From contig CAJAUM010000100.1 of the NCBI GenBank assembly GCA_903945175.1, positions 70,709 to 134,708 on the forward strand: DNA of 64,000 nucleotides, given 5' to 3'. A program made the translations under genes and the position numbers. The notes beneath the pieces are model-generated. The model saw nothing but the letters and a program-made list of their open reading frames with translations. It was not told the origin of the DNA and did no database searches. Below, one piece after another: positions 4,313 through 16,917 of the stretch. Positions within the stretch are counted from its first letter, which is position 1. The number at the start of each line of letters is the position of its first letter. Origin of the DNA: an uncultured Bacteroidales bacterium. GTDB taxonomy: Bacteria > Bacteroidota > Bacteroidia > Bacteroidales > FEN-979.

Positions 4313-4353
4313 GCGAGATTTCGGTAATTGGCGGACGGAGGCGTGATGGAAAA

Positions 4354-4555
4354 CAATATGTTACCGCAAAAGCAGCCTCAGCCAATTGCGGAGTTTCATT
4401 GTGGCGATATATATAAGTTTACCATCGAGCTGTTGGCGCAGCTGCGTTGGGGTAACTATTGTCAGAGTACCTGCGTTGTGGTAACTATTGTTGGAGCAAC
4501 CCGTGAAAGCGTGATGTAAACGTTCTCCCCTTTTTGTTGCAGGTTTCAGGCAGTA
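4354..4555. repeat. R1 hairpin element, copy A (one extra 29-bp unit)
   Basis: The 5' arm starts CAATATGTTACC and continues GCAGCCTCAGCCAATTGCGG; the 3' arm GAGCTGTTGGCGCAGCTGCG ends GGTAACTATTG at 4461. The arms form a long imperfect stem around a ~40-nt AT-rich loop. One extra 29-bp unit (4462-4490), ending again in GGTAACTATTG, follows. The next ~65 bp (GGAGCAACCCGTGAAAGCGT onward to CAGGTTTCAGGCAGTAA) is shared only with copy B at 10 kb. The copy lies between the DUF234 relic and the UPF0175 fragment. Confidence 0.8.
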
Positions 4556-4562
4556 ATCTTAT

Positions 4563-4631
4563 ATTCTTCTCGCATTGAATGAAACAGAAGCCGAATTGCA
4601 GAAAAGAATAAAGATCGCATTGGCAATGACA
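4563..4631 (+). pseudogene. Fragment of a UPF0175 antitoxin gene
   Basis: Frame translation gives ILLALNETEAELQKRIKIAL followed by AMT, almost identical to residues 11-33 of the UPF0175-like relic at 13103. No start codon and no C-terminal half are present. The fragment abuts the stop codon of the HNH nuclease gene. It looks like the residue of a duplicated antitoxin locus and has no likely function. Confidence 0.6.
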
Positions 4632-5318
4632 CTAATTAATGCCAATCCTGTTCCCTATGAAAATCAATAGAAATTGTCTGAATGGTTGGTTCTTATCCAG
4701 AAGAAATCTCTGGAATTGAAGTCTCCAGAATGATCCTCTATGATAAACAGGAATACTCCTGTATGCTTCAATTAGTCCGTTTAGAACATCTTGTGCTCTT
4801 CGTTCCCGGAGATTTGTGTGATTTAAATTTACAATATTAATAAACGATATGACTTGATTCTCGATTTCATATTTTAAATTAGGCTTTGGAACGATGGTCC
4901 CATCTGAATATGCTGCCAGGTAACTATTGTTGGACGTAGCAGACACATCACAATTTGCGAGAAAGATCAAGGGAGAAATCATATCACTGCCTTTCTCTTT
5001 GTCACAGTGAAGTCTGTTAGTAAACTCCTCTTTGTTTTGCGTTTTACACACAGCAACAAGATTAAAATAATTTGTTGATAATTCCTTATTTACTTCTTTT
5101 GGGATGACATGTTCAATAGAGGAATTTTCAATCGAAATCACCTGCTGACAATATGCACAAAGCCCACATTGCTCCTCAATTAAAAATTGTTTGGCTTGGC
5201 TGATCTGAGTTAAAGCACTATAATCCCTTCCATAATCATAAGATCTTATCCCATCAGCTTTGGTAAACCAGTTATCCCAACCAACAGGCGGTCCGTGCTG
5301 TTTCTTTATATATTGCAT
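4632..5318 (-). CDS. ptuB: Septu HNH endonuclease PtuB
   Basis: This 228-aa protein is an HNH nuclease of the type found with Septu systems and retron Ec78. Visible motifs are the zinc-type CGLCAYC near residues 55-61, IEHVIPKE with the general-base histidine near 75, YFNLVAVC (central Asn) near 87, and LHCDKEKGSD near 105. The N-terminal GPPVGWDNW segment is also typical of this family. The start ATG lies 1 bp after the stop codon of the ATPase gene, so the two are coupled in one operon, ATPase first. In Septu, PtuB cuts nucleic acid when the PtuA complex is triggered by phage. All expected motifs are present. No reverse transcriptase lies nearby, so this is a stand-alone Septu rather than a retron. 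Confidence 0.85.
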   Translation of the reverse strand: MQYIKKQHGPPVGWDNWFTKADGIRSYDYGRDYSALTQISQAKQFLIEEQCGLCAYCQQVISIENSSIEHVIPKEVNKELSTNYFNLVAVCKTQNKEEFTNRLHCDKEKGSDMISPLIFLANCDVSATSNNSYLAAYSDGTIVPKPNLKYEIENQVISFINIVNLNHTNLRERRAQDVLNGLIEAYRSIPVYHRGSFWRLQFQRFLLDKNQPFRQFLLIFIGNRIGIN

Positions 5319-5319
5319 T

Positions 5320-6606
5320 TTATGTTTGATTTTCTGAATGTTGCCATTCGATCAATGCCTTTGCCTTGTTGATATCTGCATCCTCCAAACCTAAAAGGGT
5401 AACCAATACTGACAGTAACGGGGTATACTCTTCAGGTTTGTTTTCATCAATTAATCTGAAAAGGTGATTTAATTTATTTTGCGTCGGAACATGTCTGTCA
5501 GAAGCCCCAAGTACATTTCTTAAAACACTGTTTATCTGTTTGCCAAAAAAATCTGATGGGTGTTTTTGTATATAGTTATCACTGATAACGTACAATGTCC
5601 CGTTTTGGAAGTTTGCAACAACTGTTGGACTGTGCGTGGTAATGAAGAACTGCACTTTTGGGAAAAGAGTCTGTATAAGTTCGATTGCTTTTGCCTGCCA
5701 TCTGGGATGTAAATGAAGATCAATTTCGTCAATAGTGACAACACCAAAAACAGAACTGGTGATTTCGTCTAATGTTAGCCATGGATTTAGCTGTGATGCC
5801 CTCCATACTAAATCAAAGATCAGATACAACAGATTTCTAAAACCATCTGAATAGTAACTGATTGGCAGGTTGTGGTCGTCATCGTAATTGACAAAAAGTT
5901 CATTGTTAAAATCCGGATCCTGATAAATCTTTAATGAAAAATCAGATGGGAGGTCAAGAAATAAAATCAGTGTTTTTCTAATAGCATGCTCGACATTTTC
6001 TAATACCAGGTCAGTTTTCTCGATCTCTTTGATTTGTAAAGTAGCTCTTCTTGTAACCGCGTTTCCCAGCCATTCGTTCAAAATGCTTTTAATGGCATTT
6101 TCTTTTAAACACTCTATATACCCGTTTCTTCTGCCATTAGCGGCATCATATCTCTGCTTCCCTGACAAACTTGCATCCTTGAATAACCGCTTGGTTGAGT
6201 AATAGGCTAATACAGGAGTGAGCGTTTTATCGTCGGGGTTGTTAAAGAAATTGAAATAATGTTCTCCATAATCACTTGCTGCCTTCGAAGCTTTTGAATC
6301 GTTTGCCTTTGTATCTCTCTTAATAGTTCGTGCCCATTCTGGTCTAATTATTTCAGACTCTGATGAAACTTTAGAGAAGGGCTCTCTTTTTCCCATGGTA
6401 ATTTTAATCTCCTCAAATTCGATCATACGTTGCATTTTTTGCTCTTGGGAGCCAAAAAAACAACCTACAGCAACATTTATTGCTTCAAGAATACTTGTTT
6501 TGCCACTTCCGTTTCCACCGACAAAAAGGTTAACCCCATGAGCGAATTTCACCTTCACATCACTGAAGTTTTTAAAATTTTGTAGTGCTATTTCGTCAAT
6601 TCTCAT
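5320..6606 (-). CDS. ptuA: Septu ATPase PtuA
   Basis: A 428-aa SMC/ABC-like ATPase (AAA_21/AAA_23 type). It starts MRIDEIALQNFKNFSDV, with Walker A GGNGSGKT at residues 30-37, an ABC-like signature around SYYSDGFRNLLYLI near 255, Walker B VVTIDEIDLHLHPRW near 290, and the switch segment FFITTHSPTVV near 318. Together with the HNH partner directly downstream this is the PtuAB arrangement. PtuA is known in the family to form an oligomer that holds PtuB inactive until ATP changes or phage infection releases it. A perfect 14-bp palindrome sits 5 bp before the start codon. The ATPase motifs look intact. An unrelated OLD-family nuclease is unlikely because no Toprim domain follows. Confidence 0.85.
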   Translation of the reverse strand: MRIDEIALQNFKNFSDVKVKFAHGVNLFVGGNGSGKTSILEAINVAVGCFFGSQEQKMQRMIEFEEIKITMGKREPFSKVSSESEIIRPEWARTIKRDTKANDSKASKAASDYGEHYFNFFNNPDDKTLTPVLAYYSTKRLFKDASLSGKQRYDAANGRRNGYIECLKENAIKSILNEWLGNAVTRRATLQIKEIEKTDLVLENVEHAIRKTLILFLDLPSDFSLKIYQDPDFNNELFVNYDDDHNLPISYYSDGFRNLLYLIFDLVWRASQLNPWLTLDEITSSVFGVVTIDEIDLHLHPRWQAKAIELIQTLFPKVQFFITTHSPTVVANFQNGTLYVISDNYIQKHPSDFFGKQINSVLRNVLGASDRHVPTQNKLNHLFRLIDENKPEEYTPLLSVLVTLLGLEDADINKAKALIEWQHSENQT

Positions 6607-6611
6607 GGTGT

Positions 6612-6694
6612 ATTTGTTAACAAATCTGATGAATCATCAGGATCATTTCTTTGACTAGGGCAATAGGACAATATTGAAAACATCGCTGTCCTAT
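6612..6694 (-). promoter_or_regulatory. Palindromes in the ptuAB upstream region
   Basis: ATTTGTTAACAAAT at 6612-6625 is a perfect 14-bp palindrome ending 5 bp upstream of the ptuA ATG. Further upstream ATAGGACA (6663-6670) and TGTCCTAT (6687-6694) form an 8-bp inverted repeat with a 16-nt spacer, able to form a hairpin. They may be operator sites; no regulator gene adjoins the operon. The rest of the gap up to the IS end at 6831 shows no coding potential. Confidence 0.4.
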
Positions 6695-7017
6695 AAGCGT
6701 CAAATATAATACTAATTTCTTTTACCTATTGGGAAGGGAACAATTTTGTCTTTTGAAACTTGGAGTAAAATCAATCATAATAAAAATATGCTCCGGAATC
6801 ACCCAACCACCTCGCCCCATAGAGGAAAGGTGTAAGCAGTAATTAACAATGGACGTTTTTTGGCAAATAAGTTTCCCTGCTTTGAAGCATAAAAATACTA
6901 AGGTTTATTTACGGTTTAACATTGATTTTACTTTATTTTGACAGGATATTAAAATGAGAATAACATGGCCCACGCACGATACTCAAGTTGTTATCACCCA
7001 TTTTAACATCCATACAA

Positions 7018-7776
7018 TCAGATTTTTGCTTGATTAAAAATAGTTTTTCTGTTTTCCAGCCGATAGCTTTTTCCCGTGAGTTTTATTACTTCACAATGGT
7101 ATAAAATCCGGTCGAGTAGTGCTGCAGCCAATGATTCATCGTTAAGCAACTGGGCCCATTCCTTCGGATTTTTATTGGTGGTAATGATAAAGGATGATCG
7201 TTCAAACATCTGGTTTATCAACTGAAAAAGCCCAACAGCTATCTCTTTTTCCAGCGGGAACAACATGATATCATCGATAACCAGTAACTGTGCTCTGAGC
7301 AGTCTTTTGTATTCTGCAGCGGCGGTGGCAGTAACCGATTTCATCCGGATCACATGAACGATCTGGTCAATGCTGCGGAACATGGCACGATAACCATTTC
7401 TGAGGGCGTCATAACACAATCCGGCAGCAATGTAGGTTTTGCCTGTGCCGCTGGGACCGGAAAGCATCACGTTAAAATGTTGATCGAGCCACAAAAGCTC
7501 GCGAAGTTGTCGCAATTGCTGGATTGATATGCCGTTTATGAACGAAGGGTTATATTCATCGAGGTCATGCTGAAGCGGGAGTTTGGCTGCTTTCATTCGC
7601 TTTACCTGTTCAATGGAACTTCGGTATTTTGCCTCCTTTTCAAGCATGCTCAGGGAGTATTCAAGATAACTGACCTTGTCTTTGCGGGCAGTTTCCAACA
7701 GCGGTTCAATCCCGCCAATGAGGCCATTAAGTTTTAACTCGCGGGCCTGGTCCTTAAAAAGATCGAGTCGTTCCAT
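7018..7776 (-). CDS. istB: IS21-family ATP-binding helper protein IstB
   Basis: This 252-aa AAA+ protein is related to DnaC. Walker A is LSGPSGTGKT near residues 104-113, Walker B is QLLVIDDIMLFPL near 163, and sensor-I-like FIITTNKNPKEW is near 196. IstB is the regulatory ATPase that assembles on target DNA and recruits and activates the IstA transposase; it also moderates target choice. It lies 3 bp after istA, as usual for the family. The length matches typical IstB (about 245-260 aa) and no defect is visible. Confidence 0.95.
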   Translation of the reverse strand: MERLDLFKDQARELKLNGLIGGIEPLLETARKDKVSYLEYSLSMLEKEAKYRSSIEQVKRMKAAKLPLQHDLDEYNPSFINGISIQQLRQLRELLWLDQHFNVMLSGPSGTGKTYIAAGLCYDALRNGYRAMFRSIDQIVHVIRMKSVTATAAAEYKRLLRAQLLVIDDIMLFPLEKEIAVGLFQLINQMFERSSFIITTNKNPKEWAQLLNDESLAAALLDRILYHCEVIKLTGKSYRLENRKTIFNQAKI

Positions 7777-7779
7777 GGC

Positions 7780-9339
7780 CTACTGAATGAGGGTTTGATA
7801 ATCATTAATATTGCTCATTTGCGGCTCATACTGCATCATAAATGAAGAATCACCAAGCGGCATCAGGATCTTTACATCGGCTAAATCAACCGGCTGGATT
7901 GCCTTGGTTTGTTTATATGAACGCAGAACATCACAGAATTCAGTGGCTGAGTATAACCGGTTTTTCTGACAATACTCCAGGGCTTTTAAGGCAAGCGTAG
8001 TATCACTGGCTACAATTTCCTTTTTGATCAGCATCATCTGGTCGCGGACGTACCGGGGTTTTTCCTTGCGGATATGTTCCAGAAAAATGGTTGCCAGTGA
8101 TTGGTTTGTAAACAAAGCGCCTACCTCTTCAATGAGGTGTTGAACTTTGTGAGAGGTGTCCCGCTGGTGGTTTGTATTACGGACAGTGCGCCCTTTGCCC
8201 AAAGCAATGGCATGATTTGCTAAAAGTTGAGAGCTCTCGTTATAAATCTCCAGTGAACGTTCTTTCACCTTGACAACAACCCTGGTGCCGGGACCCTGAT
8301 AAGTGCCAATGGGAATGTCGTACATGTTCCCTTTAAAACTGATCACGTTATCTTTTCGAACATGATACGTGTTTTCAGATTCGGTCAATGGGATGAACCC
8401 GGTAAAAGGTGTCAGGAAGGCTTTTTCGATCAACCACTCCTGGCAAGGAATTCTCCGGATGGAGGAATGCTCTTTGGCATTGCCAGTGCGCTCAAGCCAG
8501 CCAAGCGACTGTTCATTTAACACTTCGAGGGTATTAAAGAGCCGGCCCCGCAAGAAGCATTGCTTAACATATTTGACCACGTTTTCGATCTTGCCTTTGC
8601 TTTCCGGATCAGCTTTCCGGCAAAAATGAAGCTTGAACTTTCGCTGCTGAACATACCTGGAAAACTCTTCTGTCAGTAATAAGTCACCATGATTTTCATC
8701 CCTGAGCAACGTGCAGTCCTGGTCAAAAACAACTTCTTCTGTTATCCCTTCATAGAAGGCAAATCCAAGATCCATGGATTCAACGACAAACCGTGTGGTG
8801 ATTGGGTTAAGGTTAAAACGAACATATTTATGACGGCTTCTCGACAAGACCATGGTCATGAAGTAAACCTTCCTGCGTTTACCTTCGTCGGCTCTCATGA
8901 TGAATTGTCCAAAATCAACCTGGGCTTGCTGTCCATAAGGCAGTTGCTCAACCTGCTGGTACTGCCGGGGCGACTCTATAATCTTTGGCAGGTTATATCT
9001 TTTTCGAACATAGCTTACAAAGTTGAATACCGTTTTAGGAGCTACTTTAGCCATATCCGCATGGTTTTCTCTCAGCCAGTCGTCGATTTGTGCAGACGAA
9101 CAATCAGGACACAATTCAATCCTTTCTTTAATGAATGGTTCGTAAGGCTTCAACTTTTTCTGCCGGTATTGCAAGTGCTTCAGCATCTGATCGAAAGCTT
9201 CTTCGCTCATGTTCAGGTACTTTCGTACTGTTTTAGGATCTTTGCCAACTTCCCTGCTAATTTGGGTCACTTTGTACTTTTTCCCGAAAAGTTCTTTAAT
9301 TTTGTGATACATGGTTTGTCTTTTAAACTGTGTCGTCAT
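7780..9339 (-). CDS. istA: IS21-family transposase IstA
   Basis: This 519-aa DDE transposase has an N-terminal helix-turn-helix (KVTQISREVGKDPKTVRKYL, residues ~22-41). The rve catalytic core has its first Asp in AQVDFGQF near 140, the second in EEVVFDQDCTLL near 206, and the catalytic Glu in DPESKGKIENVVKYVKQC near 251. A beta-barrel C-terminal domain follows. IstA binds the TGT-ended terminal repeats and catalyses cut-and-join with IstB. Length and catalytic residues are normal, so the element is probably competent. Confidence 0.95.
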   Translation of the reverse strand: MTTQFKRQTMYHKIKELFGKKYKVTQISREVGKDPKTVRKYLNMSEEAFDQMLKHLQYRQKKLKPYEPFIKERIELCPDCSSAQIDDWLRENHADMAKVAPKTVFNFVSYVRKRYNLPKIIESPRQYQQVEQLPYGQQAQVDFGQFIMRADEGKRRKVYFMTMVLSRSRHKYVRFNLNPITTRFVVESMDLGFAFYEGITEEVVFDQDCTLLRDENHGDLLLTEEFSRYVQQRKFKLHFCRKADPESKGKIENVVKYVKQCFLRGRLFNTLEVLNEQSLGWLERTGNAKEHSSIRRIPCQEWLIEKAFLTPFTGFIPLTESENTYHVRKDNVISFKGNMYDIPIGTYQGPGTRVVVKVKERSLEIYNESSQLLANHAIALGKGRTVRNTNHQRDTSHKVQHLIEEVGALFTNQSLATIFLEHIRKEKPRYVRDQMMLIKKEIVASDTTLALKALEYCQKNRLYSATEFCDVLRSYKQTKAIQPVDLADVKILMPLGDSSFMMQYEPQMSNINDYQTLIQ

Positions 9340-9465
9340 GAGCCTTTTTCTTTTGGGGTTCGCACCTTAAAGTTAAAAAGGCTTTGGCGTTTTATGCGAC
9401 AAACCAGGGAATCTTATTTACGAAAAGAAAGGGATTGTTATTTACCGTTTACAGGAAAGGAGCTG

Positions 9466-9610
9466 AATCAGACCTGAAATTTGTATATTTCCTTATAAAT
9501 CCACCATCCAAGCTGGCTAATAGGTAGCAACCAAAAAAGCCTGCAAACCAGACATTAAAAACCGCCGGGCCTCCCTGAATTAAGCACGACGTGACCAGCA
9601 ATTACGGGCG
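9466..9610. repeat. Dispersed repeat R2, copy 2, next to the IS21 insertion
   Basis: The block begins AATCAGACCTGAAATTTGTA and ends GACGTGACCAGCAATTACGG, collinear with copy 1 at 3371-3515 over its later two-thirds. The part corresponding to the first ~35 bp of copy 1 is absent; the IS21 target duplication lies 6 bp to the left, and sequence on the other side of the IS does not match the missing part. No gene was recognised in 9454-9622. Confidence 0.65.
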
Positions 9611-9622
9611 CTTCCCTATTTT

Positions 9623-10015
9623 TCATTCAAGCAGAAATGCTTCTGCCTGATTTTTTATTTTTAAAGCTTCCTGAAAATACATTTCTGCTTCTTCGAGGGT
9701 TGGTTTACCATGTGGCATTAACCCCAAATCGCCGGGATATCTCTAATCAATATACAAACGGTCTAATTCGGATATTATCAATTCGTTTACAGTGAATGGT
9801 AATACCTCTTCTATTTTCATCAAAAGTGATTGAAGGTTGTGCGTTTTAACAATAGCAATTTCAAATTCCTCAATAATCGCTTTGATTGATTTTTCGATTG
9901 TCTGTTGCGAATGAAAAGCTACGATATTCGTCAGAATTGGATTATTCAGAAGATTTTCTATCGTTAGGATGTCATCATCTGCCGAATTAAGCCATTCCCT
10001 GGTTAATTGCTTCAT
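9623..10015 (-). pseudogene. HEPN-domain protein with one in-frame stop
   Basis: From ATG 10015 the frame reads MKQLTREWLNSADDDILTIE, then HSQQTIEKSIKAII and KTHNLQSLLMKIEE, typical of the HEPN partner in HEPN/MNT toxin-antitoxin pairs. A TAG at 9743-9745 stops it after DRLYID. Reading through, the frame continues with RYPGDLGLMPHGKPTLEEA to a natural stop at 9623, about 130 residues, which is the usual family length and conserved tail. A single change such as TCG to TAG would explain it. The truncated 90-aa form may keep some activity. It overlaps the end of the MNT gene by 29 bp. Confidence 0.75.
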
Positions 10016-10343
10016 ACAAAATTTTTCCTTTTCGGTTTATTTCGGCAGTAAAGATGCCTCCGGATTCCTGCATCTTTTTATACATTACCTTTGTATAAAC
10101 CAGCATATCGATCGGAATAGCCCTTCTGAATTTTTTAATCAGAAGGTTGTACTTGTGGTGTAATTCCATTTTTTCGCGGTTCGTTGAGGGCATGTAATTA
10201 TCGGTAGTTACAACAATGATATCCAAATCGCTATCCTCTCTGGGATTACCATAAGCATATGATCCAAAAAGGATGATTTTCTCAACGCCTTCCTTTTTTA
10301 AAGTATCGGTAATGCCGCTAATGATTTGTTCAATATCAGCCAT
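9987..10343 (-). CDS. MNT-family nucleotidyltransferase antitoxin
   Basis: A 118-aa minimal nucleotidyltransferase. The signature GS-x10-D-x-D is seen as GSYAYGNPREDSDLDI near residues 27-42, and a third acidic residue is likely in IPIDMLVYT near 76. In HEPN/MNT modules, MNT proteins neutralise the HEPN RNase, in some cases by AMPylating it. It precedes the HEPN gene and overlaps it by 29 bp. The extent of interaction now is uncertain because the HEPN gene carries a stop. A 19-bp motif 73-91 bp upstream is shared with the second MNT locus. Confidence 0.88.
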   Translation of the reverse strand: MADIEQIISGITDTLKKEGVEKIILFGSYAYGNPREDSDLDIIVVTTDNYMPSTNREKMELHHKYNLLIKKFRRAIPIDMLVYTKVMYKKMQESGGIFTAEINRKGKILYEAINQGMA

Positions 10344-10415
10344 AATTTACTTTGCTCAAAGATCCGGAAAAATCTTTTCCTGTTTCTCATACAAAATTAG
10401 CAAAAAGAAATTGTT

Positions 10416-10434
10416 TGTCAAATTATTTAACGCA
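10416..10434 (-). promoter_or_regulatory. 19-bp motif shared by both HEPN/MNT loci (copy 1)
   Basis: TGTCAAATTATTTAACGCA lies upstream of the MNT gene that starts at 10343. The identical 19 bp is at 22347-22365, upstream of the second MNT gene. The flanks differ. A binding site for a common regulator or a relic of shared origin are both possible. Confidence 0.45.
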
Positions 10435-10485
10435 CTTCCCTTTTCAACCTTCTACATAACGAAAACATGACAGGGTGACGGAAAA

Positions 10486-10658
10486 CAATATGTTACCACA
10501 AAAGCAGCCTCAGCCAATTGCGGAGTTTCAATAAGGTAATATATATGAGTTAACATCGAGCTGCTGGCGCAGCTGCGTTGGGGTAACTATTGTTGGAGCA
10601 ACCCGTGAAAGCGTGACGTAAACGTTCTCCCCTTTTTGTTACAGGTTTCAGGCAGTAA
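10486..10658. repeat. R1 hairpin element, copy B (no extra 29-bp unit)
   Basis: The stem arms run from CAATATGTTACCACAAAAGC at 10486 to GGTAACTATTG ending at 10592. No additional 29-bp unit follows. The next ~65 bp, from TTGGAGCAACCCGTGAAAGC to GGTTTCAGGCAGTAA, match the flank of copy A. Together with the preceding ~130 bp this fills the 434-bp gap between the MNT gene and higB; the remaining part shows only the shared 19-bp motif. Confidence 0.8.
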
Positions 10659-10741
10659 ATGACAGGTACCAAATGAAGGCTGAAAATCGTCCATTAAATA
10701 TCCTTTCTGGTAAGAGAAAATTAAAAATAAATTTTATAAAT

Positions 10742-10773
10742 GTTTTCTATTAGAAAACTATTATTTAACTTTG
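10742..10773 (+). promoter_or_regulatory. Operator and -7 box of higBA module 1
   Basis: GTTTTCTA-T-TAGAAAAC (10742-10758) is a perfect 8-bp inverted repeat, followed by the -7 box TAACTTTG (10766-10773). The higB ATG is at 10778, so transcription may start at or next to the start codon. The palindrome fits a HigA operator; direct evidence is lacking. Confidence 0.55.
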
Positions 10774-10777
10774 CAGC

Positions 10778-11095
10778 ATGTTTAACATCATTGCGCGAAA
10801 AACATTGCTGGATTATTGCAAAAGATATCCTGTGGCAGCGGCTGCATTGCAGGAGTGGTACTATGAGATGATTCAATGCGGGTTTAAAAACTTTAATGAA
10901 CTGAAGGCAGTGTATGTCCATGCAAGCCTGGTTGCCGACGACAGGGTGGTGTTTAACATCATGGGAAACCAGTATCGGCTGGTCGTAAGGATTGTATTTC
11001 CATTCAGGGCCATTCAGATAAAATGGTTTGGCACCCATGCTGAATATGACAATACAGAAGCATCCGTAACTGAATTTAAAAAGAAGAAATCATGA
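10778..11095 (+). CDS. higB: HigB-family mRNA interferase toxin, module 1
   Basis: A 105-aa protein of the HigB_toxin family (PF09907 type), a RelE-like ribosome-dependent mRNA nuclease. Diagnostic segments are LDYCKRYPVAAAALQEWY, NFNELKAVYVHASLV, DDRVVFNIMGNQYRLVVRI and KWFGTHAEYD. The toxin precedes the antitoxin, the usual HigBA order, with a 4-bp ATGA overlap. The product has the expected length and no disruption. It is probably kept in check by the downstream HigA; free HigB would halt translation. Confidence 0.9.
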   Translation: MFNIIARKTLLDYCKRYPVAAAALQEWYYEMIQCGFKNFNELKAVYVHASLVADDRVVFNIMGNQYRLVVRIVFPFRAIQIKWFGTHAEYDNTEASVTEFKKKKS

Positions 11096-11448
11096 AGTTA
11101 AAAATCATAGGGTCGGAAAAAGAGTATCAACAGTGCCTTTCATGGGCAGATGAAATGTTTGATAAGAATGTAACGCCTGAATCACCTGAAGGCGAAAAAC
11201 TTCAAATAGTACTCCTGTTAATCAGGCAATATGAGGATCAGTACTATCTTGTTCCAAAACCGGATCCCATTGATGCCATAAAGAGTAAGCTGGTTGATTT
11301 GGGGCTGAAGGATAAGTACCTGGTAGGTAAGGTAGGCTCAAAGGGATATGTTTCTGCAATCCTGAATAAACGTAAACCGCTAACACTTCAACTTGCCAGA
11401 TTGTTTCACCAGGAATTCGGGATCCCGGCTGATATTCTATTGTCATAG
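11092..11448 (+). CDS. higA: HigA-family antitoxin, module 1
   Basis: A 118-aa protein with an N-terminal acidic helix region (EYQQCLSWADEMFD) and a C-terminal HTH_XRE-like domain from about residue 60. DPIDAIKSKLVDLGLKDKYL precedes the recognition region KGYVSAILNKRKPLTLQLA. The layout matches HigA proteins whose N-terminal part binds the toxin and whose HTH part binds the operator. The palindrome at 10742-10758 is the likely site. It starts inside the last codons of higB (ATGA overlap). Confidence 0.88.
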   Translation: MKLKIIGSEKEYQQCLSWADEMFDKNVTPESPEGEKLQIVLLLIRQYEDQYYLVPKPDPIDAIKSKLVDLGLKDKYLVGKVGSKGYVSAILNKRKPLTLQLARLFHQEFGIPADILLS

Positions 11449-11488
11449 TTTTAGATTTAAAGAACAGTCAAGGCTTCCTTCCTCCTAC

Positions 11489-11516
11489 CTTGACCGAGTC
11501 ACAGGACTCGGTCAAG
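11489..11516. terminator. Perfect 12-bp hairpin after higBA
   Basis: CTTGACCGAGTC and GACTCGGTCAAG pair perfectly around the loop ACAG. It lies about 40 bp after the higA stop. No T-run follows, so intrinsic termination in the classical form is uncertain; it could equally be a mobile palindrome. The rest of 11449-11584 has no gene. Confidence 0.45.
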
Positions 11517-11584
11517 CCCTCCGGAAATAAACGCTGAATTCGGCTTTTATCATGTGCTAATTATCGGAATTCCGAGACGAGGGG

Positions 11585-12052
11585 TTAGCTCAAAAAAATT
11601 CCCGCTGGTATTGCCGTCATGTTTTGTTCGATGTGGTTTACGGCTGGGTCGTTGCTAAGAATGAATGCATGAAGCAGCGGTTTATCCAGCAGTTTTTCGA
11701 GTGCGCTGAAATGCCGTGCATCAGACCGGGTCGAGGTAATGGAGTTTTGGCGACTTAAAAGCCTTTTCAGGGAATTCCGGTGCCAGGGTTGCAGCATCAG
11801 CGTTTGGTAGCTCAGTTCGAGATATTGAAGAAATCGTTGCGCAGTTTTGGAACTGATACCGCATTCGGCCGCCAGCGTTGAATAATTAACCAACTGGCCC
11901 GTGAGAAGCGCGGTGATCTGCTGCGCCTTAACAAAAGGATCGAGTGACCGGAAATCGGCCAGATCCCTTACATCCCGTTCAAGATAGGTGCGCACATAAT
12001 CGGTAAGCCATTGGAACCGGGCGACTTTCCTTTCATACAAGTAGCACAGTTC
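11585..12052 (-). pseudogene. Truncated AAA/DUF4143 ATPase relic
   Basis: The readable part is RTYLERDVRDLADFRSLDPF, then QITALLTGQLVNYSTLAAEC and GISSKTAQRFLQYLELSYQT, the start of a DUF4143 domain. The whole N-terminal P-loop domain is missing. After LKRLL the frame shifts: the other frame continues KSPKLHYLDP, as expected in the family. A further deletion joins this to the C-terminal ARHFSALEKLLDKPLLHAF and HIEQNMTAIPAGIFL. The upstream break lies right at the stop codon of the second higA, as if that module's arrival cut the gene. Confidence 0.75.
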
Positions 12053-12053
12053 A

Positions 12054-12425
12054 TTATTGTCTTGAAATCTGATAATCAATTATTAACAAGTCAGCTGACA
12101 GATTCAATTTATTTGTCAATTTTCGTATCATTTCAACGGTTAGCTTCCGCTTTCTGTTTAAAATCTCAGAAACCCTGCTTTTACCTCCAATTTCATCAAC
12201 TAAATCAATTTGTTTCAGTTGCAATTCTTGCATTCTTATTTTAATGGCTTCAATTGGGTCAGGAGCTTCTATTGGATAGTATTTTTTTTCAAAATCATCC
12301 ACTAACAAGGCAAGAATGTCTGCTTCATCACTCTCTGATGTTTCTGGAGGAGCGTCAAAGATTTCGTCAAGACGTTTCAACGCTTTACGATAATCTGATT
12401 CTGTTTTTATAGGTTTGATAGTCAT
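12054..12425 (-). CDS. higA: HigA-family antitoxin, module 2
   Basis: A 123-aa protein similar in layout to the HigA at 11092 (shared YY-x-PDPI-AIK motif) but clearly different in sequence. The N-terminal segment SDYRKALKRLDEIFDAP is followed by a C-terminal XRE-type HTH: RMQELQLKQIDLVDEIGG, then KSRVSEILNRKRKLTVEMI. It lies 12 bp after its higB. It presumably binds the HigB of the same module and an operator at 12762-12786. Confidence 0.88.
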   Translation of the reverse strand: MTIKPIKTESDYRKALKRLDEIFDAPPETSESDEADILALLVDDFEKKYYPIEAPDPIEAIKIRMQELQLKQIDLVDEIGGKSRVSEILNRKRKLTVEMIRKLTNKLNLSADLLIIDYQISRQ

Positions 12426-12437
12426 AACTTACTTTTT

Positions 12438-12734
12438 TTAAATTGTGTTTGCATCAATCTTACTATATTCGACATGGGTACCAATGAATTTGATAAAAAC
12501 CCACTGCTTTTCAAAATTGAATTTGGCTACAAGTCTGAACGAATTCCCTTTGATATTGAAAACAATCCGGTTACTTTTAAGAATACTTGCATGAACATAC
12601 GTTTTTTTTACTTCATTCGGATTTTTCCAATCTGAACTCATTGCTGTGTCGTACCATGTTTTCAAATATTGTTCGCAATCAGGATTCTTTTCCCAATATT
12701 CTCTCAATGTGCTTTTTGCAAATATTCTTTCCAT
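12438..12734 (-). CDS. higB: HigB-family mRNA interferase toxin, module 2
   Basis: A 98-aa HigB_toxin family protein: STLREYWEKNPDCEQYLKTW, KNPNEVKKTYVHASILKSNR, IVFNIKGNSFRLVAKF and FIKFIGTHVEYSKID. It shares the family motifs YVHAS, VFNI-GN and GTH-EY with module 1, yet overall identity looks moderate, so this is an independent module and not a recent duplicate. It converges with module 1 across the DUF4143 relic. The reading frame is complete. Confidence 0.9.
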   Translation of the reverse strand: MERIFAKSTLREYWEKNPDCEQYLKTWYDTAMSSDWKNPNEVKKTYVHASILKSNRIVFNIKGNSFRLVAKFNFEKQWVFIKFIGTHVEYSKIDANTI

Positions 12735-12750
12735 TTAGCCAATTAAAATG

Positions 12751-12786: not shown

Positions 12787-12960
12787 TCTTTTGTATGGTT
12801 GGTAACAGATACTGGAGAAAAAGTCGAAACGGACCACACTTCGCCCGTTTTATTGACTAAATAGCATAATTTTATTTTAATGCAAATATATTCTGATTTT
12901 GCTTATCCAGTGTAATTTGGAAAGGCCGGCAGTTTTTTTCAGGTTAAAAACCAGATCTGA

Positions 12961-13029
12961 GATCTGAGATTGATTTCCATAAGCATGGAGGATAACTCAC
13001 TTTCAGAGTTGAAAATATTGTTTAAGGAC
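12961..13029 (+). pseudogene. Relic of the PIN antitoxin gene
   Basis: Translation gives DLRLISISMEDNSLSELKIL followed by FKD, nearly the same as residues 21-43 of the antitoxin encoded at 2714. No start codon, no rest of the antitoxin and no PIN gene are present. Repeat R2 follows at once, as it follows the intact PIN gene at 3.4 kb. The locus is therefore a second copy that lost most of both genes. Confidence 0.6.
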
Positions 13030-13082
13030 CTTTGCCCTGTACTCCCAGTGTGAACCTTGTAAATCAGACCTGAAATTTGTAA
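13028..13082. repeat. Dispersed repeat R2, copy 3 (short)
   Basis: CCTTTGCCCTGTACTCCCAG through AATCAGACCTGAAATTTGTA corresponds to the first ~55 bp of copy 1. The second half of the repeat is missing. The UPF0175 gene starts 20 bp further on. Confidence 0.65.
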
Positions 13083-13102
13083 TTTTGTCAAAGAATTGAC
13101 AG

Positions 13103-13418
13103 ATGAATATGCAAGCAATTACAATAAACATTCCTTCTGACATTCTTCTCGCATTGAACGAAACAGAAGCTGAATTGCAGCAAAGAATAAAGATCGCTTT
13201 GGCAATGAGATTATATAGATTGCAAAAACTGACAATTGGAAAGGCTGCTCAATTATCAGGACTCTGGCCCAATATTTTCATTGGCACTTATTGATAAACT
13301 TGATATTCTAACTGCGCTATTTGATGATATTAAAATCCCAAATGCGGTTTGGAATGAAATAACATATGATAAGACAAAGCCTGATTACGAGAAGCTCGGA
13401 CGGGGTGATGTGAGCTAA
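13103..13418 (+). pseudogene. UPF0175 antitoxin and DUF3368 toxin collapsed by a deletion
   Basis: The first frame (MNMQAITINIPSDILLALNE, then ELQQRIKIALAMRLYRLQKL and IGKAAQLSGL) is the N-terminal half of a UPF0175 antitoxin. It then switches frame at about 13262 into SGPIFSLALIDKLDILTALF, FDDIKIPNAVWNEITYD and TKPDYEKL, the start of a DUF3368 PIN-like toxin that normally begins with an SDTSPIF motif. The join removes the C-terminal half of the antitoxin and the toxin start. The toxin part is cut off again at the stop of the convergent ATPase gene. Neither product can be functional. Confidence 0.7.
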
Positions 13419-14678
13419 TCAGGATTCCAGCAGCCATTTCCAGGCTGGGATGATCTTGATGATATGACTGTCTTCCCGGATTTCCCGTTGCTCATTCAAT
13501 GTTATGATAGTGAGTTCATGCATGTCGAGTTCTTTGGCTGCATGGATTAATGCACGCATCTCGCGTTTCAGGGTCTTTTCATCTTGTGTTGACAGGGTCA
13601 CCTGAATTAATTCCAACACCTTCAGGTTTTTGTATAGCACAAAATCAACCTCATACTGTTTTTTATAATAAAATAGTTCAAAATGGTTGGTACGTGACCT
13701 CCTGCTTAACTCAAGAAAGATAACATTCTCCAAAAGGCGCCCTGAATCTGAAGTGAATTTTACTGAGGTTACACCGGAAAAAGCATTATCAATGATATAT
13801 GTTTTTCGGTAACGCAGGCGCTCCTGATTTTTAAAGGAAAATTTGGGCAGGGTCAACACAAGGTACGCCTCTTCGAGATAAGAAATATAATTTTTCGCTG
13901 TGTTTTCACTGCCAAGTCCAAAAAGATTTTTAACCCGGTTATAACTTAGTTCCGAGGCAAAATTGTTTGAAAGGTATTCAGCAGTCTGACGGAAAGCCCG
14001 GACATGCCTTATATGATAACGGAAAATGATATCGCGGGTAACAATTGCTTCAAATAAATTTTCAATATATGAAGTTTTTGTCTCCCCCATTAAAATTTCA
14101 GGAAACCCCCCACAAAGAAGGTATTCATCAAAATTTCTGCTAAGTATCCCTCTATCCTTTGCTGTTTCGGTACCGGCTAATTGAATATTCCTGATCTTTA
14201 AAAATTCCTTAAAGGAAAAAGGAAATAATTCGATCGTATTATAGCGGCCAGTAAGGTGTGTTGCCATTTCCCGACCAAGAAGTTTAGAATTTGATCCTGT
14301 AAGAACAATATGGATGTTCTTACGCAGCAAACGGTTTACAAAAAGATGCCAATACTCAACATTTTGAATTTCATCAAGAAGAAGATGCGTAAATTCACCA
14401 TACACATTGTAAACGGCTTCAAGAAGGTCATTCAATCTGGCGGCATCAATTCCGGAAAGCCTTTCATCATCAAAGTTGACATATGCATAGTTAAGGCCTT
14501 TGAGCGCTCTGTGAGCGAGCATTGATTTGCCAGATCTTCTCACCCCGGTAATAATTTGCGCAAGTCGGCTTTTCGTTTTTACAGCATTTTCAAGGTCACG
14601 CGGAACCCATCCTATCTTGTTGTAAACAGTTAACTCTTCACGTTGTTCTGCAACTATTTGTCTGAAATTTGTTTCCAT
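13419..14678 (-). CDS. AAA_14/DUF4143 ATPase, copy 1 (intact)
   Basis: A 419-aa protein. Its N-terminal P-loop domain has Walker A GVRRSGKS at 45-52, Walker B HLLLDEIQNV at about 98-107, and sensor-like HIVLTGSNSKLLGREMATHL near 125-145. It continues with FPFSFKEFL and the DUF4143 part. Near the C-terminus YEVDFVLYKNLKVLELIQV has the spacing of a PDDEXK-like nuclease core, with Gln in place of Lys. The biochemical role of this family is not settled; it is often found in defence or toxin-antitoxin islands. The promoter region carries repeats (see 14698-14765). The gene is full length and seems intact. Confidence 0.85.
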   Translation of the reverse strand: METNFRQIVAEQREELTVYNKIGWVPRDLENAVKTKSRLAQIITGVRRSGKSMLAHRALKGLNYAYVNFDDERLSGIDAARLNDLLEAVYNVYGEFTHLLLDEIQNVEYWHLFVNRLLRKNIHIVLTGSNSKLLGREMATHLTGRYNTIELFPFSFKEFLKIRNIQLAGTETAKDRGILSRNFDEYLLCGGFPEILMGETKTSYIENLFEAIVTRDIIFRYHIRHVRAFRQTAEYLSNNFASELSYNRVKNLFGLGSENTAKNYISYLEEAYLVLTLPKFSFKNQERLRYRKTYIIDNAFSGVTSVKFTSDSGRLLENVIFLELSRRSRTNHFELFYYKKQYEVDFVLYKNLKVLELIQVTLSTQDEKTLKREMRALIHAAKELDMHELTIITLNEQREIREDSHIIKIIPAWKWLLES

Positions 14679-14697
14679 TAGTTGGAAATTTTAATGT

Positions 14698-14765
14698 AAA
14701 TATACGAATTAGTCTCAATGTAGTGAGAATAAATAGATATTTATAGTAAACTTATTGAGAATAAA
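14698..14765 (-). promoter_or_regulatory. Promoter-region repeats of ATPase copy 1
   Basis: TCTCA-N6-TGAGA forms an inverted repeat at 14713-14728, and TGAGAATAAA occurs twice (14724-14733 and 14756-14765), 32 bp apart. The minus-strand -7-like box TATATTTA (complement of 14698-14705) is 20 bp before the ATG. The spacing resembles that of the 33-bp repeats before ATPase copy 2. It could be an autoregulatory operator. Confidence 0.4.
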
Positions 14766-14768
14766 GAG

Positions 14769-14830
14769 GTGGACAAGCGGACGAAGGGCGGACGAAAAGT
14801 GGACGGAGAGGGTGGACGGGGGGGGTGGAC
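14769..14830. repeat. Irregular GTGGACGG-type short repeats
   Basis: Seven GGAC motifs with variable spacers (GTGGACAAGCGGACG, then GTGGACGGAGAGGGTGGACG and a run of G) fill this 62-bp stretch. G-rich and T-poor on the plus strand, it is unlike its AT-rich surroundings. No gene overlaps it. Confidence 0.5.
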
Positions 14831-14835
14831 TGGTA

Positions 14836-14946
14836 CTAATATAAAAAACCAAAAAGCCACAACGGAATTTTGTTATCAAATCCATATTCAATGTCATCGG
14901 CAGCAACGAAACTTTGCTCTATACCCTTGATCTGTTTAATGCCTTT
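14836..14946 (-). pseudogene. Orphan C-terminal coding remnant
   Basis: The minus strand reads KGIKQIKGIEQSFVAADDIE, then YGFDNKIPLWLFGFLY and a stop at 14836. The composition and the clean stop look like the C-terminus of a real protein, but no upstream part exists, because tandem GTGACG repeats begin there. I do not recognise the family with certainty. It is non-functional as it stands. Confidence 0.4.
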
Positions 14947-14951
14947 TTGTT

Positions 14952-15036
14952 TGACAGCGTGACGAAAGCGTGACGAAATCGTGACAACGTGACGAAATCG
15001 TGACAGCGTGACGAAATCGTGACAGCGTGACGAAAA
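14952..15036. repeat. Tandem 19-bp GTGACG-type repeat
   Basis: Three units of GTGACGAAATCGTGACA plus GC or AC (19 bp) are flanked by shorter GTGACGAAAGC and GTGACGAAAAC versions. The same GTGACGGAAA or GTGATGGAAA stub stands just left of the other R1 elements. The array leads directly into R1 copy C, so it may have grown from the flank of that element. Confidence 0.65.
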
Positions 15037-15049
15037 CTACTTATCGAAA

Positions 15050-15253
15050 CAATATGTTACCACAAAAGCAGCCTCAGCCAATTGCGGTGCTTCAATACTG
15101 TTGTATCTATAAATATCCATCGAGCTGTTGGCGTAGCTGCGTTGTGGTAACTATTGTTTGAGTACCTGCGTTGCGGCAACTATTGTTTGAGTACCTGCGT
15201 TGCGGTAACTATTGTTTGAGTACCTGCGTTGTGGTAACTATTGTTTGAGTAAC
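15050..15253. repeat. R1 hairpin element, copy C (three extra 29-bp units)
   Basis: The stem runs from CAATATGTTACC at 15050 to GGTAACTATTG ending at 15156. Three 29-bp units follow at 15157-15185, 15186-15214 and 15215-15243, each beginning TTTGAGTACCTGCGTTG and ending CTATTG, then a partial fourth. The loop sequence differs more from A, B and D than the arms do. The stop codon of the neighbouring ATPase gene lies inside the last unit. Confidence 0.85.
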
Positions 15254-16491
15254 CATTTCCACACCGGAATTACTTCTATATTTATTCCTTGTTCCGAAAT
15301 AGTATCTTCTTCATCTTTGGTGATAACGACCATTTTTTTTACATCGATTTGCCTTGACATTTTTAGCAGCGCGCCCACTTCACGTTTGCGAGTCTCTGCA
15401 TCCTGCAGGCTATAACATACCTGTATAGCCAGTTGCTCTTCCAAAACATAGAAATCAACCTCTATGCCATGGTGATAAAAATAAACGGCGTTGTCATACA
15501 AACGTCGCAGTTGAATGGCAACCTGGTTTTCCAACAACGAAGTCAACGGGTCGACCAGGAAAAGATTGAGGATGCCATTGTCGATAAAATAATATTTTTT
15601 ATTTGCCTCCTTTTCGGCCAGCTTTGCACAAATATTTTCCATTGGAAATGTCAGCCACGACTCTTTCAGATAACCCAAATAATCAATAACCGTGTCGGTG
15701 CTGATTTTTTTTCCTGAAGAGGATACAACATTTGCCAGTCGGTTAAATGAAGTGGGTTGTTTGACGTTTTCGGCTAATTTTCGGATAAGCACCCGCAAGG
15801 CGAAATCGTTGCGAATCTGATGGCGGGTAAGTAAATCGCCAAAAAAGATTTTTTGGTAGAGACTGCTTAGCCAGGCTCTCTTGTCGGTAATATGAGTTAA
15901 TTCAGGTAAACCGCCAAAACGAAAATAATTGTCAAATGCTTTTATTATTTCGGCACGATACCGAAAAATAAAGTTCCTGTCAGTAAGATCGATACCCAAT
16001 GAAGTCAGATATTCCTTAAATGAAAATGGATAAACATTTTGAATGATGTATCGCCCACCCAGGATAGTAGCTATTTCATTGCTAAGCATTTTTGCATTGC
16101 TTCCGGTTATATAAACCCGGTAACCATGGTCGGCAAGCCGACGTGCAAATTTTTCCCAACCATCCACAATTTGTATTTCATCGAGAAAAAATATCGGTTT
16201 GCAGTCGAACATCTCCTCGTAACAAACTTTTATGCGGTCTAAATCTTCGGTGGCCAATGAAGCAATCCGGTCGTCCTCAAAGTTAAAATAAAGAATTTCA
16301 TCCTTTGAATGACCTGCATCCAACAGATGACGTATTTGCTGGAACATCAGGTATGATTTTCCAACACGACGTAAACCTACAAACACATAATTGAGTTTGT
16401 CCTCAATGATATAAGGACGTTCCTGAAATGAAACCTCCATCACTTTTTGCTGATATTCTGCGATTAATAGTTTTACAATTTCTTTATCCAT
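15238..16491 (-). CDS. AAA_14/DUF4143 ATPase, copy 2 (intact)
   Basis: A 417-aa protein with Walker A GLRRVGKS at 39-46, Walker B IFFLDEIQIV near 100-109, sensor VYITGSNAKMLSNEIATIL near 130-148 and YPFSFKEYL near 158. A DUF4143 region follows: winged-helix TDTVIDYLGYLKESWL, then IDNGILNLFL and the PDDEXK-like IEVDFYVLEEQLAIQVCYS. The C-terminal VIPVWKWLLKQ resembles the tail IIPAWKWLL of copy 1, so the two belong to the same subgroup. The TAG stop is supplied by R1 copy C, so the present C-terminus may differ slightly from the ancestral one. Upstream lie three 14-bp operator-like repeats around a -7 box. Confidence 0.85.
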   Translation of the reverse strand: MDKEIVKLLIAEYQQKVMEVSFQERPYIIEDKLNYVFVGLRRVGKSYLMFQQIRHLLDAGHSKDEILYFNFEDDRIASLATEDLDRIKVCYEEMFDCKPIFFLDEIQIVDGWEKFARRLADHGYRVYITGSNAKMLSNEIATILGGRYIIQNVYPFSFKEYLTSLGIDLTDRNFIFRYRAEIIKAFDNYFRFGGLPELTHITDKRAWLSSLYQKIFFGDLLTRHQIRNDFALRVLIRKLAENVKQPTSFNRLANVVSSSGKKISTDTVIDYLGYLKESWLTFPMENICAKLAEKEANKKYYFIDNGILNLFLVDPLTSLLENQVAIQLRRLYDNAVYFYHHGIEVDFYVLEEQLAIQVCYSLQDAETRKREVGALLKMSRQIDVKKMVVITKDEEDTISEQGINIEVIPVWKWLLKQ

Positions 16492-16500
16492 ATATTTCTA

Positions 16501-16580
16501 TCGATTATACCCGACACAAAAATACGATTTTTATCGAATATACTCGACATGAAAATATAATTTTTATCGAATATACATGA
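16501..16580 (-). promoter_or_regulatory. Three near-palindromic operator-like repeats of ATPase copy 2
   Basis: TCGATTATACCCGA (16501-16514), TCGAATATACTCGA (16534-16547) and TCGAATATACATGA (16567-16580) are spaced 33 bp apart, about three helical turns. The middle one is palindromic at 12 of 14 positions. The minus-strand -7 box TATTTTTG (complement of 16517-16524) lies between the first two. A dimeric regulator binding on one DNA face would cover the promoter. Confidence 0.6.
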
Positions 16581-16726
16581 TGAAATGATTGATCCATTTC
16601 GATAAACCTGGCTTTCCCTTCTGGTATTTCATTCAATTCGCCACCAAGATATTTTTTATTCGTTGCAAAATCAGTATTCTCAGGGATAATTTCGACTTCA
16701 TCCTTGTTGAATTTACTCAGTAGCCA
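16572..16726 (-). pseudogene. Coding remnant resembling a small antitoxin
   Basis: The minus strand is open for about 52 codons: WLLSKFNKDEVEIIPENTDF, then ATNKKYLGGELNEIPEGKAR and FIEMDQSF. The pattern of a K-x-YL-x-EL block followed by an IPEGKARF-like segment resembles small Bacteroidota antitoxins, though I cannot name the family. No start codon and no toxin gene adjoin it. It runs into the operator repeats on one side and R1 copy D on the other. Confidence 0.35.
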
Positions 16727-16755
16727 TATGGGCGTGACGGAAACGTGAAGGAAAA

Positions 16756-16892
16756 CAATATGTTACCACAAAAGCAGCCTCAGCCAATTGCGGAGTTTCA
16801 ATGTGGTGATACATATAAGTTAACCATCGAGCTGTTGGCGTAGCTGCGTTGTGGTAACTATTGTTTGAGTACCTGCGTTGCGGTAACTATTG
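16756..16892. repeat. R1 hairpin element, copy D (one extra 29-bp unit)
   Basis: The stem runs from CAATATGTTACCACAAAAGC at 16756 to GGTAACTATTG ending at 16863, with one 29-bp unit at 16864-16892. The arms match copies A-C closely. A short GTGACGGAAACGTGAAGGAA lead precedes it. The right flank (AGTGACCAATGACCAAT) enters an ATPase relic. Confidence 0.85.
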
Positions 16893-16917
16893 TTTGAGCA
16901 ACCAGTGACCAATGACC

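Follow-up and report, generated by a model that had tools for sequence, protein, structure and literature searches.

A dispersed hairpin repeat of uncultured Bacteroidales that most likely spreads as a small mobile element

In a 64,000-nt stretch of DNA from an uncultured Bacteroidales bacterium (the window), a long imperfect hairpin recurs four times, in part followed by further copies of its 3' arm. Is this repeat a mobile element, a structured RNA, or a by-product of replication? A sequence-only reading had described four copies with 1, 0, 3, and 1 extra 29-bp units, which was confirmed by the coordinates below (bit scores refer to the R1 model).

4351 to 4464, plus strand: copy 1, core hairpin (5' arm, loop, 3' arm), 121.8 bits and predicted fold
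4462 to 4490, plus strand: copy 1, single extra 3'-arm unit, 29 bp
10483 to 10595, plus strand: copy 2, core hairpin without extra units, 117.7 bits
14953 to 15035, plus strand: low-complexity GTGACGAAATC array (repeat family D4), directly upstream of copy 3
15047 to 15159, plus strand: copy 3, core hairpin, 121.1 bits
15157 to 15243, plus strand: copy 3, three tandem 29-bp 3'-arm units (15157 to 15185, 15186 to 15214, and 15215 to 15243)
15238 to 16491, minus strand: AAA_14-DUF4143 ATPase (PADLOC PDC-S01), between copies 3 and 4
16753 to 16866, plus strand: copy 4, core hairpin, 125.3 bits
16864 to 16892, plus strand: copy 4, single extra 3'-arm unit

The four core copies matched the R1 model, which was built partly from these same copies, at E values between 4.9e-28 and 3.6e-26. 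Throughout the window, this model detected no copy beyond 4.3 to 16.9 kb. The notion that copies are restricted to an accessory island held for the window, but it failed genome-wide, since some copies elsewhere in the genome are flanked by ordinary genes, such as polA and a ROK-type gene (both named by reading the protein sequences, without a family search). The core arms are predicted to pair at −21 to −26 kcal/mol. As had been suggested, any extra unit could pair with the 5' arm as well (−15 to −23 kcal/mol), but less strongly than the core 3' arm, which was the best partner in every window copy. The unit of copy 1 begins with TCAGAG instead of TTTGAG, and the stop codon of the ATPase gene (15238 to 15240) falls within the last unit of copy 3. 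Two diverged copies outside the window in the same genome (74% and 72% identity) retain the same fold, indicating that the hairpin did not arise by chance.

Across genomes, the element is a single-strand hairpin of ∼110 nt (about 49 to 127 nt). From the outside in, it comprises an outer stem of ∼9 bp, internal loop 1 (mostly TAA against GN), a middle stem of 5 bp (GCNNC/GNNGC), the asymmetric internal loop 2 (CTYR against GYA), an inner stem, and a variable loop; extra arms are copies of either the 5' or the 3' arm. In a MAFFT alignment of 30 copies that we selected from 10 genomes, computed without structural information, the three stems were 94.2% paired, a value not attained in any of 500 shuffles, compared to 28 to 54% in slid controls. 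Changes on both sides were found in 12 of 19 pairs (1/500 shuffles) and amounted to 76 cells (0/500), while the number of pair types was not above that of the shuffles (175/500); kinship among copies inflates these counts. Hence, compensatory changes do occur in the stems, and the proposed selection on structure gained support from a fold that is conserved while its bases covary. Template switching between the arms can also yield compensatory changes, which counts against reading the repeat as a mobile element.

The repeat could be a passive quasi-palindrome, i.e., a sequence whose arms are homogenized and multiplied by template switching during replication, with neither recognition nor function. 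According to one report, RNA hairpins arise and are maintained through template switching (PMC8794818), and the tandem arms together with the adjoining low-complexity arrays suggest slippage-prone DNA. Asymmetric internal loops should vanish in this process, yet five unpaired bases of the two internal loops were invariant in all 30 aligned copies. In a larger set, the one of these positions that was left free by the 5'-arm search pattern, which fixes most loop letters, was C in 85 of 96 arms, A in 10, and T in 1 (letters of the 3' arm, found with a loose pattern, were left out). The process also leaves the dispersal to unrelated sites unexplained, and a further point against it is an asymmetry between G-U and A-C in two of the three stems. 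The outer and middle stems contained 54 G-U versus 9 A-C cells or, with each combination of genome, alignment, pair, and type entering a single time, 33 versus 8 (p 1e-4); the underlying alignments had been fitted to a covariance model in which G-U is tolerated. The inner stem, which aligns poorly between sub-families, lacked this asymmetry (43 versus 41, by subtraction). Overall, we consider a passive origin quite improbable.

Further copies were sought beyond the window and were found in 20 of 43 genomes of the host's taxonomic family, the source genome (G000) included. Up to 87 candidates were scored per genome, so the copy numbers of at least 22 sites in G000, at least 51 in G027, and at least 18 in G008 are lower bounds; the genomes compared are fragmented. 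A pattern scan of named genomes yielded at least 14 stretches, a minimum because exact matches are needed, all of them in uncultured Bacteroidales/Bacteroidetes metagenome-assembled genomes. A same-order scan with R1 was negative (0/24), as was a scan of the class with R2 (none in 394 other genomes, 9 candidates scored per genome); the latter regained 9 of the 22 own sites, and copies elsewhere in the class may thus be missed. One pattern and one query sequence gave no match indicating carriage by plasmids, phages, or viruses. So far, a single taxonomic family of uncultured Bacteroidales accounts for every copy found.

Orthologous loci were compared among relatives. In G000, where it contains the element, the gap between polA and the ROK-type gene spans 427 bp; it measures 71 to 319 bp in the 13 relatives listed, in which no R2 match at an E value of ≤1 was present in 135 kb. 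Between efp and lpxD, the element is found in G035 and G062 (R2 E values of 2e-8 and 1e-4), and a 26-bp junction is found in G061 and G063. Upstream of efp, hairpins with different stems occupy the same place in the same orientation in G061, G032, G064, and G063 (R2 E values of 3e-9, 4e-6, 7e-5, and 0.001). Filled and empty orthologous sites and same-site hairpins that have diverged but still fold show gain, loss, and retention; the four hairpins upstream of efp could also be separate insertions into a hot spot.

For the gene context, 111 R2 matches were available, one of which (L034, at a contig edge) was omitted. According to gene calls from a custom codon-usage script, 92 of the remaining 110 copies have genes on both sides, 17 reach a contig edge, and 1 was called inside an open reading frame (ORF); the copies are thus almost all intergenic. 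Convergent gene ends are favored: 26 of 92 copies were in such a context, compared to 15 of the 126 gaps that served as background (Fisher p 0.003). Copies occur in both orientations, neither of which is preferred with respect to the genes (in 49 tandem contexts, 27 sense and 22 antisense).

This position close to gene ends, together with the conserved loop bases and the tolerance of G-U on one strand, would fit an RNA that acts in transcripts (in 3' UTR stability, as a terminator, or as a protein-binding RNA) and whose dispersal is secondary. Moreover, T-runs followed within 30 nt of the hairpin in 28 of 100 copies on the complementary strand and in 2 of 100 on the AAGC strand, so some copies may terminate transcription; this count takes in many near-identical G027 copies. 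The lack of orientation bias speaks against an RNA, as does the folding strand upstream of efp, which is antisense to both neighbors in all four copies. A promoter-like TAnnTTTG preceded 2 of 100 copies at a distance of up to 100 bp (100-bp flanks were scored in 100 of the 110 copies, ten being too close to a locus end). Rfam (release 15) returned no match above gathering in the window and none at an E value of ≤10 in positions 16700 to 16950; in six loci of relatives, one tRNA alone exceeded gathering, and a sub-threshold match to sraL overlapped the L041 copy (23.4 bits, gathering 39, E value of 0.3). For the regions searched, a known RNA family is thus rejected. An RNA role is possible, but the suggestion of a structured RNA was left unsupported by strand bias, promoter motif, and Rfam, and we regard it as unlikely.

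If copies move, which enzyme moves them? None was found among the few candidate families searched, and no target duplication was recognized for the hairpin itself. REP, BIME, and REPIN sequences with their TnpA-REP (RAYT) are likewise dispersed, intergenic, imperfect hairpins, but measure 20 to 40 nt versus ∼110 nt here. REPs are described as single-strand structures (PMC6006769), and the Escherichia coli RAYT recognizes single-stranded REP DNA (PMC3733652). The GT[AG]G foot tetranucleotide of the REP/RAYT system is not a feature of our element: among 105 of the 110 copies (five were too close to a locus end), the 5' foot was GTAG in 3 and GTGG in 3, and the 3' foot was the respective reverse complement in 2 and 4. 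The Y1 transposase domain (PF01797) had no match in G000 despite its at least 22 element sites, but is present in 34 of the 43 family genomes (101 places). At 20 of these loci, from 14 genomes, there was no R2 match at an E value of ≤5 and no arm motif, in contrast to REP/RAYT systems, in which the Y1 gene is flanked by its own repeats; at the 7 loci whose gene was located by script, other repeats adjoin it (by eye). A RAYT sharing the element's ends, as had been envisaged, is thereby out as the mover for G000 and the 20 loci examined.

Neighboring genes likewise gave no recurrent partner. Clustering of 393 genes within 3 kb of copies resulted in a largest cluster of 18 large ORFs, which by eye look like secreted proteins; two clusters, of 7 and 4, consisted of ATPases, and others comprised 3 to 4 genes. 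In G000, a DUF4143 or ATPase_2 hit was present no more than 1 kb away from 9 of 22 sites (0.02 expected per site at random; the sites are clustered). This enrichment would suit an integron-attC-like recombination site, with hairpins bracketing defense and toxin-antitoxin cassettes: copies 1 to 4 alternate with a Septu-like pair, HEPN/MNT, HigB operons, and PDC-S01 ATPases, and on contig C45, hairpins alternate with HipA and two small ORFs that nearly duplicate each other. Hairpin orientations are mixed instead of uniform, however, and ATPases are few among the neighbors in other genomes. Furthermore, 18 further ATPase loci in G000 and 2 homologous loci in relatives (G006 and G008) lack the element (a single best R2 match, E value of 0.13; no arm motif), which excludes ATPases of the AAA_14/DUF4143 or DUF234 type both as the mover and as a cargo that the element must carry. 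The ATPases beside the repeats are neighbors and not proven partners, though enriched near G000 copies, and an attC-like site is extremely improbable.

Ordinary transposons were considered as well, with the hairpins as pieces or passengers of miniature inverted-repeat transposable elements (MITEs). One set of G027 copies indeed resides within a MITE with the ends GAGACTGTTTAAAAATTTCA...CAGTCTC, which we take to be IS5/IS1031-like, and TAA is present on both sides in 4 of 14 aligned G027 copies. With 3 mismatches allowed, 22 occurrences of that end were counted across 208 kb of stretches from G027 and none in the stretches that carry the element in ten other genomes, and G027 sub-families in other surroundings have the hairpin region alone in common. 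We consider a MITE origin very improbable. IS110 is rejected as the parent: G000 has one close copy, a 1,241-bp insertion that itself splits a 3' arm at the conserved motif (L030), and relatives at an E value of ≤1e-60 were detected in 4 of 43 genomes. It looks like a guest in the element rather than its mobilizer. Insertion sequences are known to insert in REPs (PMC1525189), and the insertion in our element, a single case, resembles the targeting of REPs by IS110.

With moderate confidence, we therefore interpret the window copies as non-autonomous dispersed palindromic elements similar to REP, BOX, and ERIC, whose folded single strand is probably recognized by a putative trans-acting enzyme. 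The earlier suggestion of a non-autonomous REP- or MITE-like element is in line with the many dispersed intergenic copies, the filled and empty orthologous sites, and the covarying arms, and the copies most likely spread as small mobile elements. The strand recognized in folded form would be the AAGC-CTYRG strand, and the recognizing enzyme would probably be a recombinase or transposase acting in trans. Insertion would occur close to the ends of genes and in some cases within a copy already in place; extra arms would stem from tandem duplication and, probably, such nested insertion. More speculatively, and rather doubtful as a whole, the family may represent structure-guided mobile DNA, in which a non-RAYT enzyme inserts a folded single-strand hairpin, marked by its two conserved internal loops, preferentially into gene ends and into the loops of copies already in place, creating nested multi-arm hairpins that bracket the defense and toxin-antitoxin cassettes of G000. 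For many dispersed bacterial palindromes no mover has been described, and it is often uncertain if recognition depends on structure or on sequence. The present family offers orthologous sites with arms that differ together, a testable strand assignment, and conserved loop bases, and its copy-rich and copy-poor genomes allow profiling for the mover.

Among known repeats, BOX elements of Streptococcus pneumoniae are modular, contain a variable number of an inner module, and can form stem-loops; by description, they resemble our element, in which, however, the repeated modules are hairpin arms on either side of a core. ERIC and Correia-type sequences are intergenic imperfect palindromes of 100 to 150 bp from other hosts; compared by description only, they differ in that, to our knowledge, neither the internal-loop motif nor repeated arms are among their features. 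The Bacteroidetes REP subclass 2.6, said to have atypical structures, was set beside the element by its description only. The claim that no described family matches stood in Rfam and in the literature searched, with one reservation: CGTC-tagged REPs, palindromic repeats of five phyla including Bacteroidetes, are described as sequences that "apparently lack a dedicated transposase" (PMC3733652). Judged by that description, our element is far longer, with internal loops and repeated arms. On the complementary strand, CGTC was present at one foot in 43 of 48 copies of G027, G033, G036, G020, and G010, compared to 3 of 57 in G000, G008, G025, G035, G061, and G064 (1 of 21 in G000 alone). This foot in one sub-group makes a distant link possible, by which the family may connect to repeats that are themselves without a known transposase.

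Re-examination of the sequence bore out four hairpin copies in the window (4351-4464, 10483-10595, 15047-15159 and 16753-16866, all on the forward strand), with cores of 113-114 bp followed by 1, 0, 3 and 1 extra 29-bp units, as the sequence-only reading had described. Each extra unit is a further copy of the 3' arm's outer half and can pair with the 5' arm at -15 to -23 kcal/mol, the core arms doing so at -21 to -26 kcal/mol. The alternative stems proposed earlier are therefore possible, the core arm nonetheless being the strongest partner in every copy. The last unit of copy 3 contains the stop codon of the neighboring AAA_14/DUF4143 ATPase gene. Across loci, additional 5' arms lie upstream of the core and additional 3' arms downstream, with five 5' and three 3' arms at locus L166 and two and four at L031; in the fold of L006a, outer arm pairs with outer and inner with inner. 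Near-identical neighboring arms suggest tandem duplication, and nested arm pairs point to one copy having inserted into another already in place.

BLAST of the whole genome (4.41 Mb, 155 contigs) revealed two diverged cousins of the window copies (74% and 72%), both of which fold alike. The covariance-model search for further copies that had been proposed, run with a model from 8 copies (R1, alignment A1), yielded 22 distinct sites in this genome at E<1e-4. A second model (R2; 30 copies from 10 genomes, alignment A4) matched relatives as well, in at least 20 genomes, the present one among them, of the 43 in its taxonomic family, and in 3 of 8 genera. Copies numbered at least 51 in G027, 22 in the present genome, 18 in G008 and 16 in G064, these counts being minima, since no more than 87 candidates were scored per genome; sensitivity was limited, since a G063 copy upstream of efp was missed in the genome-wide search. 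R1 matched none of 24 same-order genomes, and R2 none of 394 others drawn from the class, with 9 candidates scored per genome, a depth at which only 9 of the 22 sites of the present genome were recovered. Exact-pattern matches in named public genomes comprised 14 stretches from uncultured Bacteroidales/Bacteroidetes MAGs. As anticipated, no matching described family was found in literature searches or Rfam.

The compensatory stem changes to be expected of a selected structure were present. In A4, a MAFFT alignment built from sequence alone, the three stems comprise 19 pairs, which were 94.2% paired; 76 cells had changed on both sides, and 12 pairs were doubly changed. No shuffle out of 500 matched the observed pairing, number of double-change cells or covariation score, and one reached 12 doubly changed pairs; the number of pair types, reached by 175, was therefore uninformative. 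Slid versions of the pairing were only 28 to 54% paired. The stems are separated by two internal loops (5' consensus AAGC-NN-C-CTYRG, 3' consensus CGYAG-NN-GCG), whose unpaired positions include five at which all 30 rows agree: A and G in loop 1 and, in loop 2, C, T and A. In a larger set of 96 arms, the loop C varies (85 C, 10 A, 1 T). Template switching (PMC8794818) may help keep arms matched, but conservation of asymmetric loops would not be expected from it. Some genomes carry a compact form of ∼66 nt.

With copy orientation assigned from arm homology and not from wobble pairs, 111 copies contained, in their outer and middle stems, 54 G-U pairs versus 9 A-C oppositions (33 versus 8, p 1e-4, with each genome, alignment, pair and type counted once), in alignments fitted to the model and among related copies. 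This excess suggests that the strand carrying AAGC...CTYRG is the one that folds. Counting against this, the inner stem, although it aligns poorly between sub-families, was without this asymmetry (43 versus 41, by subtraction).

Among 110 copies, 92 were flanked by genes on both sides, 17 lay at contig edges, and 1 was called within an ORF. Gene-flanked copies occupied 26 convergent, 49 tandem and 17 divergent contexts, against 15, 84 and 27 background gaps of at least 80 bp in the same loci (Fisher p 0.0028). Tandem contexts showed no strand bias (27 sense versus 22 antisense, p 0.57). Several genus g8 copies begin or end 0 to 33 bp from a called gene end. It is possible that some copies act as terminators on the complementary strand, where a T-run accompanies 28 of 100 copies.

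Orthologous sites differed in occupancy. In the polA-ROK-type gap, the element is present in this genome alone (427 bp); the 13 relatives compared have 71 to 319 bp, and R2 found no match at E<=1 in 135 kb from them. The efp-lpxD gap is filled in G035 and G062 (R2 E 2.2e-8 and 1e-4), is a 26-bp junction in G061 and G063, and revealed no full hairpin within the stretch inspected in G029, G064, G032 and G025. The two filled gaps have the outer 5' arm in common, and in G035 a second hairpin directly behind the first looks as if inserted into its loop; a deletion history is a possible alternative. On the upstream side of efp, hairpins stand in the same place and orientation, with different yet paired stems, in four of eight genomes (G061, G032, G064 and G063; R2 E 3.1e-9, 4.1e-6, 6.8e-5 and 0.0013). 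G025 and G035 have what look like hairpin stubs there, and G062 and G029 no hairpin. Since efp is 81 to 91% identical among six of these genomes, the hairpins either drifted much faster while remaining paired or were replaced.

Of the two natures proposed in the sequence-only reading, a non-autonomous mobile palindrome is the most likely account, and an RNA role is a less likely possibility. The element works like REP, BOX and ERIC-type repeats. The recognized form would most likely be its folded single strand, as is known for REP sequences (PMC3733652 and PMC6006769).

The suggested RAYT partner was not found: PF01797 is absent from this genome. It is present in 34 of the 43 family genomes, and the element occurred at 0 of 20 examined loci out of 101, which speaks against a RAYT as mover in this genome and at those loci. 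At 7 of these 20, where a script located the gene, other repeats adjoin it (by eye). The element shares dispersal and hairpin shape with the REP/RAYT system, whereas the other tests for that system were negative. ATPases of the AAA_14/DUF4143 type were ruled out as movers by 18 other, element-free ATPase loci of the genome, despite 9 of 22 sites lying within 1 kb of an ATPase match (expectation, 0.02 per site). The single close IS110 copy in this genome is itself within a 3' arm, at ...CAGACGCA / GCAGCTGCG..., which speaks against IS110 as mover. No recurrent mobility-type gene was recognized near copies. In G027, many copies are carried within a MITE having its own ends, which were absent from the analyzed stretches of ten other genomes.

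L030 13308-14303: IS110-family transposase gene, part of a 1241-bp insertion lying in a hairpin arm's conserved motif
L138, L140, L144 and others: G027 MITE, few hundred bp, ends GAGACTGTTTAAAAATTTCA, hairpin inside; 4 of the 14 copies aligned are flanked on each side by TAA

At the 3' foot, 43 of 48 copies from G027, G033, G036, G020 and G010 carry GACG (CGTC on the opposite strand), as do 3 of 57 from the remaining genomes. CGTC-tagged REPs are known, Bacteroidetes included, and lack a dedicated transposase (PMC3733652). In our element, by comparison, the tag is partly stem sequence, and all but 1 of 21 copies in the present genome lack it; the link is therefore a lead and not membership. 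Copies of this five-genome sub-group have a second small hairpin, GGCC..GGCC, after GACG at the 3' end.

Other genes and gene remnants included the following.

Window 3838-4242: DUF234 fragment, apparent ATPase gene remnant
Window 4632-6606, reverse strand: PtuB-like HNH protein and PtuA-like ATPase, Septu-type defence pair, between copies 1 and 2
Within window 9743-12734: HEPN/MNT pair
Window 10778-11095: first HigB toxin, adjoining an ORF without Pfam match
Window 11585-12079: DUF4143 fragment, apparent ATPase gene remnant
Window 12438-12734: second HigB toxin, adjoining an HTH_3 protein
L032 7657-8070 and 8389-8823: small ORFs of 137 and 144 aa that resemble each other, each adjoining a hairpin copy, the second without Pfam match

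A second dispersed repeat set (D7, D8, D11, D12 and D15; window 3371-3516, 9434-9610 and 13029-13213) lies in the neighborhood of toxin-antitoxin genes and of an IS21-like element. Rapidly changing low-complexity arrays (GTGACGAATGACG, AGCGAAATAGCG, GAATATCGAAT) occupy window 14953-15035 and intergenic gaps of relatives (polA-ROK loci L105-L117; L066 and L164), and in several cases are inverted on opposite sides of a hairpin.
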